A DNA stretch of 21,617 nt from positions 1 through 21,617 of the IMG/VR virus record IMGVR_UViG_3300035190_000146, one strand, 5' to 3'. The position numbers and the translations under genes were made by a program. The number at the start of each line of letters is the position of its first letter. Position 1 is the first letter of the stretch. Below the pieces are notes generated by a model, which did not search any database, was not told the origin of the DNA, and saw only the letters and a list, made by a program, of their open reading frames with translations. The DNA is from a virus. Of the stretch, positions 7,615-21,617 are shown piece after piece.

Positions 7615-8113
7615 ACAAGATAAGGCGTTGGCGCGTCAAACCGCTGACGCCTTTATCCAGTGGTCGATACAAACACAAAGCACCGACAGGCCGCACACCA
7701 GGTATAAAGCCTGGGAATCAGATCATCAAAGAAAACAACAAATGCAATTGGCCTATGGAGCAGAAATAGCTATTGCCAGGCTTCTAAACCTTTCCTGGAA
7801 TGGCCTAGATACCTTTAAAAACAAGGCCGATGTGGGCGATAATATCGAGGTGCGATACTCCTCAGTGCCGTACTTAATCCTGCGGCCTAATGATCGCGAG
7901 AGCGACATTGCCTTTTTAGTGCAGGGTTCTACTTTAGATCGCTTATTCTTAGGCGGCTTTATGCCTGTAAAAATGGGCAGAACGCCAACCTACAAGCTAA
8001 AGGATGAAGAGACCTGGTTTATACCCAGAGAGTCCTTGTATGCCTTTATACCGCAGTACCAGGCTGTCCAGGCGTTTCTACAGCGCTTGGCGACTCGAAG
8101 CCAAACACCGTGA
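7592..8113 (+). CDS. PD-(D/E)XK nuclease-like protein
   Basis: A 173-residue protein. I chose ATG 7592 over the GTG one codon earlier. It resembles a phage family with an YGAEIAIARLL helix (Glu58), then FKNKADVGDNIEVRYS. Here Asp80 or Asp83, Glu86 and Arg88 match the D...ExK layout of PD-(D/E)XK nucleases with Arg in place of Lys. Strands LILRPND and IAFLVQG follow. It could be the exonuclease or Holliday-junction-type partner of the annealing protein; catalytic competence is uncertain because of the ExR. It overlaps the previous gene by 23 bases and is the last gene before the large non-coding region. Confidence 0.5.
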   Translation: MKPLILTEQDKALARQTADAFIQWSIQTQSTDRPHTRYKAWESDHQRKQQMQLAYGAEIAIARLLNLSWNGLDTFKNKADVGDNIEVRYSSVPYLILRPNDRESDIAFLVQGSTLDRLFLGGFMPVKMGRTPTYKLKDEETWFIPRESLYAFIPQYQAVQAFLQRLATRSQTP

Positions 8114-8132
8114 TGGCCTTTATAGGGCCTCT

Positions 8133-8152
8133 AAGGGGCTTTTTAGCCTCTT
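8133..8152 (+). terminator. Probable intrinsic terminator of the early module
   Basis: AGGGGCT (8134-8140) pairs with AGCCTCT (8145-8151) around a TTTT loop, with one G-T wobble, and A8133-T8152 can add an eighth pair. A short T-tract (8151-8153) overlaps the stem base. It begins 20 bases after the nuclease-like gene stop, where the early transcript should end. Confidence 0.5.
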
Positions 8153-8176
8153 TCAGGGTGTGGATGTAGGTAAGTT

Positions 8177-8241
8177 CCCACAGGCTCGTCGTGGTCGCTT
8201 GTGGGCGGCAGGTGGGGTGGCTGCGGACCACCCCATTTGCC
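8177..8241 (+). ncRNA. Two tandem stable hairpins
   Basis: Hairpin one pairs CCCACAGGC (8177-8185) with GCTTGTGGG (8197-8205) over 9 bp. Hairpin two pairs GGCAGGTGGGGTGG (8207-8220) with CCACCCCATTTGCC (8228-8241) over 14 bp with two G-U wobbles and a 7-base loop. They are separated by one base. Hairpin two is the strongest local stem I found. It could end transcription without a T-run, protect a 3' end, or form part of a structured RNA. Confidence 0.55.
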
Positions 8242-8260
8242 ATTTATAGCCAGTGTCTAT

Positions 8261-8291
8261 TTGACGTCTTGTCCGAGGGTAGGTCTATATT
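8261..8291 (+). promoter_or_regulatory. Candidate sigma70-type promoter
   Basis: TTGACG (8261-8266) resembles a consensus -35 box and TATATT (8286-8291) a -10 box, with a 19-base spacer that is longer than ideal. Transcription would begin near 8298, inside the GNRA-capped hairpin, and give a leader of over 200 bases before the gene at 8512. It lies between a terminator-like hairpin and the next operon, where a promoter is expected. Confidence 0.4.
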
Positions 8292-8319
8292 TTGCCCTGG
8301 TCGTAAGACTGGGGCAGGA
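8290..8319 (+). ncRNA. Leader hairpin with a GUAA (GNRA) tetraloop
   Basis: GCCCTGGTC (8294-8302) pairs throughout with GACTGGGGC (8307-8315), including two G-U wobbles, around a GTAA loop. Four further weak pairs (8290-8293 with 8316-8319) extend it to 13 bp. A GNRA loop closed by C-G is the most stable tetraloop class and often docks into an RNA receptor, so an RNA function is more likely than chance. Confidence 0.5.
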
Positions 8320-8399
8320 ACACCAGCAGCGACGGTCGACGGTCAAGTGATCGGATACCGAGACGCAGTGATTTCTCCGTACTCACCTAAATTTAATTT

Positions 8400-8415
8400 G
8401 GGGGGGTAGGGGGGG
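8400..8415 (+). promoter_or_regulatory. G-run element, potential G-quadruplex
   Basis: Seven G, TA, seven G. The two runs can supply four GGG tracts with loops of 1, 2 and 1 bases, a compact quadruplex pattern. An AT-rich tract begins about 30 bases downstream. The role could be replication, packaging or leader RNA control. Homopolymer lengths here are also where assembly errors are most likely. Confidence 0.45.
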
Positions 8416-8511
8416 CATTTCACTGCAACTCAGGTCTCTGGTCAAATAAAAATAAATAAATAAAGATTAAAATAATCAACTGATAAATCCCTACCAATGA
8501 AGGGAAAGTAA

Positions 8512-8721
8512 ATGACACTTAACATCAACATTGGCATAGGGGAAATAACAACAGAAATATGCTCAGATGAATCTTTATCATTTGAGGCAATTGAAACACT
8601 TTTAAACAGATCTGTGCAAAGCGTCTTGGTAATGTTCAACTCATTAGACGCAAAGGATCGCAGCCTCGTTCTAGGATTGGAAGACGCTGATGACGAGACG
8701 GACGAAGAGGAAGACGCCTGA
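8512..8721 (+). CDS. Small acidic hypothetical protein
   Basis: A 69-residue protein with a clear ribosome binding site (AGGGAAAG, three bases from the ATG). The first 40 residues look like a small alpha/beta unit (LNINIGIGEITTEI, SFEAIETLLNRSVQSVLVMF). The C-terminus is strongly acidic (EDADDETDEEEDA). DNA-mimic proteins and chaperone-like inhibitors often look like this, but nothing here is diagnostic. It opens the operon after the non-coding region and its last 32 bases overlap the endonuclease VII-like gene. Confidence 0.6.
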   Translation: MTLNINIGIGEITTEICSDESLSFEAIETLLNRSVQSVLVMFNSLDAKDRSLVLGLEDADDETDEEEDA

Positions 8722-10486: not shown

Positions 10487-10519
10487 CCGCCCCCCCTGCG
10501 AAATCTCTCCCCCCTGGCG
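10487..10519. other. C-run element upstream of HNH: candidate cos/packaging site
   Basis: Seven C (10490-10496), then TGCGAAATCTCT, then six C (10509-10514). The unit C6TG(G)CG appears twice, 18 bases apart. It lies in the only non-coding stretch before the HNH/TerS/TerL genes. HNH-encoding cos phages cut just upstream of these genes, and a C-run, TGCRAAAT core, C-run layout is one I associate with such sites. Cleavage position and overhang cannot be read here. Confidence 0.4.
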
Positions 10520-20047: not shown

Positions 20048-21617
20048 ATGGCAAAACAAGTCTCCATTGATTTTCTTACGCGCCTTAAAGATAAAGGTTT
20101 TAAAGACCTCGAAAAAGCATCAAAGAAGCAATCAAGCGTACTTGCTGGTTTAAGTAAACAACTAGCGGCTGTCTTTTCTGTTGCTGCAGTTGTTAAATTT
20201 GGCAAAGAATCTGTGAGGGCTTTTCAGGACGCGCAAAAAGAAGCAAACCAACTTAAAACACAACTTAAGAGTTTGAATTTAGGTTTTGCCCAGTTGCAGA
20301 TAAGCGACTTTATAAGAGACCTTGCTTTAGCTACAGGTGTCACTGGTGGCGCTTTAACTGACGCCTTTATAACTTTATCGCAAGCCACCAACGATGTGAC
20401 AAAAGCTCAAAAACTATTAAAGCTCAGTTTAGATATAAGCGCTTCTACAGGTAAAGATTTAAGAACAGTAACGGTTGCTTTACAAAGAGCCCAGGCAGGT
20501 CAACTATCGGCTTTGACCAGATTGCAGATAGGTTTTACTTCTACAACTTTAGAAGGCAAAGATTTAGATGAAGTACTAGCCGATCTGGAAAAGAAATTTA
20601 GTGGCTCGGCCTTAGTAGCGGCCGACACCTTTGAAGGCAAAATCAATCGGCTAAAGGAAGCGGTAGAGGAAGCAAAAGAGGCATTCGGCGAAAGTCTGGT
20701 CGAAGGTATAGAAGCCAGCAATGTATCCGTTGAAACCTTGCAGAAAAACATTATTGATCTAGGTGCTACTCTGGGAACCATAACTGGAAAACTCATCGCC
20801 TTTAACCAGTCGGTCATTCAGGATGTTACAAAGGAATTTGAGGAAGACCAGGGTTACTTTGCATCCTTTGTAAAGTCGCTAGTCAAAACAAACAAAGAAC
20901 TTGCAGCCATAGACGGTGGAAGGCTTAGAGCAGCTACAAGAGCGCAAGCGCAAATTAGAAAAGTCGAAGCTGAAAATGCTAAGAACGTTAAGAAAACTAT
21001 CAACATACAGAAAAAGGCAGATGCGGATAAGAAACGCGCTGCGGAACTAGAACGCCTTAGAAACCGCATCTCCTACAAGTTTGACATTGATGCCATCAAT
21101 CTAAACGCAGCCTTGCGACGCGATTTATCAATTGAGGACAAATCTAGAGTCCTAGAGTTGGCGGCTTTAAAAAAGTCTGAATATCAAACCGAAGAAGAGG
21201 CGATTAAAACATTAACGGCGGCCATAGAAGCAACGTCAAAGATTAAGCCAGATATTAAGTTTAACGATAACCTTGATGATATTTTAGAAAAATTAAGAAA
21301 AATAATCGAGGGCAAGTACAGCATCAACATTGGTGCCACAATTACTGTGCCTAATATTCCATCTCCAGGTGGCAGTTCAACTGCATCACCAGGTGGCGGT
21401 AATTTCATTCCAGGAGCTGTAATATCACCTGGCACTGGAGAACCTGGAACAGGAACAGGAACCAGCGTTGGAACTTTTCCCACGATTCCAGGCACTGGCT
21501 CTGGTGCCATCATTGAAACTATAAGTAACATTATAAGTAATCAAAATACGCTGACAGCGGATTTTCTTGCAGGTCTACCCAGTGGACTTGACGCTAATGG
21601 ACTAGCTGCTGCCAGAT
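20048..21617 (+). CDS. Tape measure protein, N-terminal part (runs off the window)
   Basis: The ATG follows GAGGAG by six bases. The first 523 residues here join the piece at the left end for a total near 620. The N-terminus is amphipathic and basic (MAKQVSIDFLTRLKDKGFKDLEKASKKQ). Long helices follow (SVLAGLSKQLAAVFSVAAVV, a short hydrophobic segment at about 34-50; TRAQAQIRKVEAENAKNVKK). A Pro/Gly/Ser/Thr-rich linker at about 435-480 (IPSPGGSSTASPGGG, GTGEPGTGTGTS) precedes a repeated C-terminus. The protein fixes tail length; at roughly 1.5 angstroms per residue the tail would be near 90 nm, an inference from length alone. Confidence 0.88.
   Translation, partial: MAKQVSIDFLTRLKDKGFKDLEKASKKQSSVLAGLSKQLAAVFSVAAVVKFGKESVRAFQDAQKEANQLKTQLKSLNLGFAQLQISDFIRDLALATGVTGGALTDAFITLSQATNDVTKAQKLLKLSLDISASTGKDLRTVTVALQRAQAGQLSALTRLQIGFTSTTLEGKDLDEVLADLEKKFSGSALVAADTFEGKINRLKEAVEEAKEAFGESLVEGIEASNVSVETLQKNIIDLGATLGTITGKLIAFNQSVIQDVTKEFEEDQGYFASFVKSLVKTNKELAAIDGGRLRAATRAQAQIRKVEAENAKNVKKTINIQKKADADKKRAAELERLRNRISYKFDIDAINLNAALRRDLSIEDKSRVLELAALKKSEYQTEEEAIKTLTAAIEATSKIKPDIKFNDNLDDILEKLRKIIEGKYSINIGATITVPNIPSPGGSSTASPGGGNFIPGAVISPGTGEPGTGTGTSVGTFPTIPGTGSGAIIETISNIISNQNTLTADFLAGLPSGLDANGLAAAR
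21486..21617. repeat. Right copy of terminal overlap
   Basis: Same 132-base sequence as the window start, except C at 21612 where the left copy has G at 127. The variant gives AAAR instead of AAGR in the tape measure. Either read error at the contig edge or a real population variant explains it. Confidence 0.93.

Follow-up and report, generated by a model that had tools for sequence, protein, structure and literature searches.

The gene-free interval and its features

The window analysed here is the whole stretch of 21,617 nucleotides (IMG/VR record IMGVR_UViG_3300035190_000146). Its first bases recur at 21485 as a terminal repeat, so that the contig closes on itself within a tape-measure-like gene, and the genome that the record represents is probably complete and either circular or circularly permuted. 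Between an upstream open reading frame that ends at 8113 and a downstream one that begins at 8512 lies a gap of 398 bp free of genes, in which an initial annotation had noted four hairpins with stems of up to 14 bp, a promoter-like pair, a tandem CGACGGT, two G7 runs and an AT-rich tract. These observations hold with two corrections, which concern the promoter pair and the extent of the conserved span. The hairpins are present as imperfect inverted repeats at 8207-8220/8228-8241 (14 nt, 86%), 8177-8185/8197-8205 (9 nt, 89%) and 8360-8371/8420-8431 (12 nt, 83%), and as a GNRA hairpin at 8299-8310; the tandem CGACGGT is found at 8330-8343, the G7 runs at 8400-8406 and 8409-8415, and the AT-rich tract, which is the top AT 45-mer of the window (91%), at 8444-8488, right after the G tract.

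Compared with shuffled sequences, the fold of the entire 398-nt gap has a z-score of -8.2, and that of the 148-nt core at 8299-8446 a z-score of -6.0; in neither case was any shuffle equally good. The G tract GGGGGGGUAGGGGGGGC (8400-8416), which holds the two G7 runs, ranks first among the 43,196 20-mers on both strands of the window for the stability of RNA:DNA over DNA:DNA pairing, and with a score of 2.24 it is also the G4Hunter maximum of the window. G7TAG7C occurs once in the window with up to 3 mismatches allowed (0.01 occurrences expected), and G7TAG7 can be read as G3-G-G3-TA-G3-G-G3, i.e. as the four G3 tracts of a potential G-quadruplex. Second in G4Hunter score within the window are a C7 and a C6 tract 12 nt apart at 10490-10514, on the other strand and upstream of an HNH gene.

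The two hairpins at 8177-8205 and 8207-8241 lie just upstream of the promoter discussed below. They carry a conserved loop, TCGTCGTGGTCG, and two clades of near relatives differ in them by compensatory changes; when they were looked for across the family described in the next section, they were found solely in the near relatives of the window. They might serve as a terminator or as a primosome-type site.

A family of structured phage RNAs

Positions 8299-8446 of the + strand encode a structured phage RNA that belongs to a family with a shared fold, is present in single copy, and has its place by replication or recombination genes. The span of 8170-8320 that the initial annotation had put forward for a covariance model misses most of this widely conserved unit, whose 5' end is a predicted transcript start and whose 3' end is the end of conservation. 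The exact string GGGGGGGTAGGGGGGGCA matched 58 IMG/VR stretches, most of which also have the hairpin, TGGGGCAGAAAC, a tandem GACGG..GACGG, a pyrimidine stretch and a tail like GGGTTCAGGC; a pattern for the 5' part alone matched 96 stretches. A joint pattern gave matches in at least 120 stretches of viral DNA, as against none for a control pattern with a scrambled core. Among 84,980 genomes of bacteria and archaea the joint pattern had no match, a second pattern had none in bacteria and archaea either, and the members of the family all come from metagenomic viral contigs. A covariance model built from 40 members, the window among them, detects the RNA once in each of 32 other records, and likewise once in the window, at 8284-8456, with P1, M, the pyrimidine arm, the G tract and R2 all in order; the score of this last match (83.5 bits, E 1e-24) favours the window, which is a training sequence.

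Throughout the family the elements follow the same order: a -10 element, a GNRA hairpin at the predicted 5' end, the GGGGCAGAAAC core, R1, M, the pyrimidine arm, a tract of the form G6-7(N)1-2G6-7, and R2. In the window the GNRA hairpin (P1, GGUC-GUAA-GACU, 8299-8310) is followed by the near-invariant core at 8311-8321, which reads GGGGCAGGAAC (GGGGCAGAAAC in most members; 123 of the 134 members read TGGGGCAGAAAC and 8 read TGGGGCAGGAAC). R1 (GGUCGACGGUC, 8334-8344), which includes the tandem CGACGGT, is a near copy of R2 (GGUCUCUGGUCA, 8433-8444), the two lying in a direct repeat of 77% (8334-8346/8433-8445). Between them are M (UGAUCGGAUACC, 8348-8359), for which ACCGAGAC at 8357-8364 offers a second possible register; an insert of the window at 8360-8371, which lengthens the M stem; and the pyrimidine-rich arm CUCCGUACUCACC (8375-8387) and the G tract, which are the 5' and 3' strands of a G-hairpin with 13 family pairs. 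X (GCAG, 8326-8329) can pair with X' (CUGC, 8423-8426). The AT-rich tract just downstream of R2 was checked across the family, and is not a general feature of it.

Pairing was evaluated in an alignment of 40 members that was made without structure; its counts are uncorrected for phylogeny. Changes on both sides are seen at 4/4 pairs of P1 (99.4% of cells paired), at 4/8 pairs of the long-range helix between M and R2, and at 3/13 pairs of the G-hairpin (approximately 92-97% of cells paired). Overall, 94.3% of the cells are paired, and there are 63 double-change cells versus 19.4 in shuffles, again uncorrected for phylogeny. The initial annotation had named a lack of compensatory changes in the stems of homologous phages, together with unconserved sequence, as a refutation; such changes are seen, and they point to selection on RNA pairing. 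At most pairs of the G-hairpin a C-G is replaced by a U-G in 6-9 of the 40 members: a G arm that is nearly constant, with a partner that alternates between C and U, fits a G-U-tolerant RNA of the + strand. The duplex of the pyrimidine arm with the G tract has an energy of -18.8 kcal/mol, versus -13.0 kcal/mol for shuffled sequences (calculated for L056, in which this stretch is identical).

R1 precedes M, and can replace R2 as its partner; the near repeat with its shared partner looks like a built-in switch. When cognate duplexes were compared with those of non-cognate or shuffled partners, z-scores of -5.2 for R1:M, -5.5 for M:R2 and -4.3 for X:X' were obtained. Three of five controls were null. 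The exceptions were R1:R2 (z -3.3) and X:R2 (z -2.7), a result that is probably due to the similarity of R1 to R2 and to overlap between the segments compared. Formed simultaneously, X:X' and M:R2 would make a pseudoknot. In the minimum-energy fold of the RNA in the window, which also engages M, the insert at 8360-8371 allows M:R2 to grow into a single long nested stem instead, with X' able to pair with the insert rather than with X.

As for the promoter, a consensus scan gave no sigma-70 pair in the gap, so that the promoter-like pair of the initial annotation is replaced by a feature that rests on comparison within the family. A TAnnnT element is present upstream of P1 in 131/134 members, in most cases 24-26 nt ahead of the GGGGC core, and 79/134 members have an extended -10 element, TGnTAnnnT, 27-30 nt before that core, versus 7.4 expected. 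In the window the element is TATATT (8286-8291), preceded at a 19-nt spacing by a weak -35-like TTGACG (8261-8266). From the conserved position of the -10 element we infer that transcription starts at the first bases of P1, which in the window would be near 8299; counted from this start, the G tract ends at 86-118 nt in all 134 members. Intrinsic terminators, in the sense of a GC hairpin directly followed by a U run, are absent from 8000-8600, the G-hairpin being trailed only by AUUUC.

The spacer of the G tract is also distinctive. TA separates the G-runs in 37 distinct contexts, while every other dinucleotide except GG does so in at most 4; this enrichment argues that the tract is not poly-G noise. 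A TA spacer occurs in most members, and an exact G6AG7 in 9/134. The G-run hairpin was also observed on other scaffolds: in a second group of loci (L018, L027-L029, L039); in L067; at a separate locus, L187, as G7-AA-G7 with UU in the arm; and in the unrelated phages L045 and L025, whose G-run elements are directly upstream of primase-like genes (identified by eye). In addition, G7TAG7CA has a different conserved context, with TTAGTAT before and CACAATCCAGTAGGTTGTG after it and without the pyrimidine arm, in L016, L030, L035, L060, L061 and L062.

The proposal of a new structured phage RNA is therefore strongly supported, by the compensatory changes, by the breadth of the family, and by its place outside known families. 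When the window and 10 other loci were searched, no Rfam 15 family attained its gathering score, the best permissive matches (E 4.6 and 2.3) being to animal RNAs; a tRNA/tmRNA search gave no matches; and BLASTN of the region and its relatives against isolate phages gave none, in a search in which the G tract may be hidden by low-complexity filtering. A model search and a G-run scan likewise gave no model match in PAC6, most of Artemis2UCLA, Rhodalysa, Immanuel3 and ct2KA10; a G5TAG6 string was noticed near the end of Artemis2UCLA (L317 42298). We found no account of such a phage RNA in a literature search that covered mostly papers available without subscription. On inspection by eye, the defining features of hammerhead and HDV-like ribozymes, and of DGR and attC-like DNA elements, were not seen.

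Genomic setting and GC skew

In most loci the RNA sits where lysis/tail genes give way to replication genes. In the 40-kb relatives, tail-fibre and endolysin genes (phrog_11667, phrog_21357) are on one side, and exonuclease, phrog_364-like and DnaB-like genes (phrog_1870, phrog_243) on the other; in the group of the window and in L194, L201, L286 and L293 the RNA is instead near a single-strand-annealing gene. No helicase or polymerase gene was recognised near the element in the window, where a terminase gene is located approximately 4 kb away. The helicase, tail and terminase proteins have named relatives that come, with few exceptions, from phages of Actinomycetota (hosts Mycobacterium, Streptomyces, Cutibacterium, Rhodococcus, Gordonia and Arthrobacter), which suggests that the phages of the family probably have Actinomycetota as hosts too.

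We have studied the relationship between the RNA and strand composition by means of the cumulative third-position GC skew, after removal of the coding-strand mean. In 12 of 21 genomes, versus 2.1 expected, the minimum of this measure falls within 5% of genome length from the RNA; the corresponding binomial p of 1e-7 is an optimistic figure, given the relatedness of the genomes and the fact that this version was turned to once the plain cumulative GC skew had lacked a clear signal. The agreement extends to genomes (G011, G021, G023, G024) in which the RNA has the inverse orientation with respect to the genes. The minimum is away from the RNA in the window itself (0.20 of the genome), in its sister G014 (0.14), and in G002, G003 and G030. 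The skew profile that the initial annotation had suggested as a check gives no support to an origin at the RNA in the window itself, and its minimum is often near the RNA in related genomes.

The closest named phage, ct2KA10 (OX376640), is without the RNA and has its skew minimum at the syntenic locus. At the place of the RNA (L312 4030-4210) it has palindromes of alternating AT along with a long inverted repeat, ACATAGTTCTCCCTTA..TAAGGGAGGACTATGT, a block that looks like an origin of another type. This arrangement fits the swap of one origin type for another; it also fits a module-boundary effect, as a skew change at the boundary between modules would resemble an origin signal. In the Propionibacterium phage PAC6, a relative that is in culture, 2.2 kb without annotated genes or a match to the RNA model (L315 26994-29244) are a candidate region for the origin of that phage.

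A possible transcript-primed origin and its known counterparts

Of the functions initially proposed for the gap, a replication origin is the best remaining reading, given the locus, the skew minima of related genomes and the G tract, and with the skew minimum of the window itself as the contrary observation. More specifically, we consider that the same DNA, 8299-8446, may be a transcribed origin primed through an R-loop and G-quadruplex and equipped with a fold switch, with a probability of about 0.5. Host RNA polymerase would initiate at the P1 hairpin, and R1 would at first pair with M. Once the G6-7(N)1-2G6-7 tract had been copied, the G-rich transcript would form an R-loop by remaining on the C-rich template, where an RNA/DNA G-quadruplex might lock it; RNase H would leave a 3' end, from which DNA synthesis could be primed into the downstream DNA. 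R2, on emerging, would take the place of R1 on M, and the G tract would be sequestered by the pyrimidine arm, so that the two together could toggle the transcript between priming and non-priming folds. ColE1 RNA II has alternative pairings, which the R1/M/R2 arrangement of the phage RNA recalls; because of this likeness, and of further parallels with ColE1 and with the mitochondrial CSB II described below, a transcript-primed origin is judged the most likely function.

This reading has to be weighed against three others, of which the main rival is a small RNA that acts in trans during infection, for example by binding host RNA polymerase, the ribosome or a host RNA. An RNA of this kind, which we regard as unlikely, would account for the promoter, the compact fold, the compensatory changes as selection on RNA pairing, and the indifference to orientation; its active fold would consist of the G tract and the alternative helices, and the proximity of replication genes would reflect ordinary modular order. 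It leaves unexplained the coincidence of the locus with the GC-skew minimum, and the palindromic AT-rich block in the relative that lacks the RNA, and its target is not known. Orientation bears on the next alternative, a leader that would act in cis, as an attenuator or in the manner of a riboswitch, on the replication or recombination genes downstream. In 46 distinct loci the RNA points towards the replication genes and has the same orientation as the exonuclease-helicase genes, and in several of these a start codon lies within approximately 100 nt after the G tract; but it faces away in 25 of the 71 scorable loci, and it is followed by different genes from locus to locus (exonuclease, FmdB-like, HNH-like, small ORFs). 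The occurrence of both orientations argues against a leader, including the late-gene leader initially envisaged; a consistently upstream, co-oriented element is largely refuted, and we hold this function improbable.

Even less probable in our estimate is an element that works at the level of DNA only, such as a protein-binding origin or a recombination or packaging site, with its hairpins formed in single-stranded DNA. The single copy at a fixed genomic place, and in the window the R1/R2 direct repeats with their AT-rich flank, agree with it, whereas the C-G to U-G changes in the G-hairpin fit an RNA of the + strand, the promoter element is at a near-fixed distance, and the terminase gene of the window is approximately 4 kb off. 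Returning to the transcript-primed origin, its extension to the family as a whole is more tentative, and our confidence in it stays a little short of even: a widespread family of such phage origins, in which an RNA with an R1/M/R2 switch would deliver the G tract for the R-loop and G-quadruplex, as a convergent counterpart of CSB II in phages probably of aquatic Actinomycetota, with the G-run module used on other scaffolds as well. To our knowledge, the way in which replication starts is not known for most uncultivated phages, and a conserved RNA that possibly marks the site would provide a sequence handle on the origins of many of them. The family also adds an RNA with a testable fold switch and, even if it acts in trans, a conserved phage RNA outside Rfam.

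These features can be compared with those of known systems. Like other phage-borne structured RNAs, the element is structured, carried by phages and present once per record; unlike them, it has no match in Rfam 15 at gathering score. In ColE1, the origin is opened through a persistent hybrid formed by the structured RNA II (PMC5043065), and in the model proposed here a structured non-coding transcript of the host polymerase would likewise open the origin and prime synthesis. The phage RNA differs from RNA II in its length (approximately 150 nt, versus 550 nt before the ColE1 origin) and in the central position of its G tract; it has no sequence match to RNA II and no Rfam match at gathering score, and no counterpart of the antisense RNA I was noticed. 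In human mitochondria, light-strand promoter transcripts of approximately 120 nt stop at the G-tract of CSB II, where a G-quadruplex-stabilised R-loop is formed, and are processed into primers by RNase H1 (PMC6317783); the tract has the forms G5AG7, G6AG7 and G6AG8 (PMC8780183). The phage element shares with CSB II a promoter followed, after a transcript of approximately 100-120 nt, by two G runs split by 1-2 bases (PMC8780183, PMC6317783), a tract of the G5-6(N)G7-8 type ending 86-118 nt from the predicted start, and the G6AG7 of nine members is identical to one of the CSB II forms. It is unlike CSB II in that its transcript is folded, with compensatory changes, a pyrimidine arm and the R1/M/R2 alternative, in the TA spacer of most members, in the use of a bacterial polymerase, and in that the phage R-loop is only proposed. 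The likeness to CSB II is probably convergent; if the transcript-primed origin is real, one G-tract logic would link priming in phages, plasmids and mitochondria.
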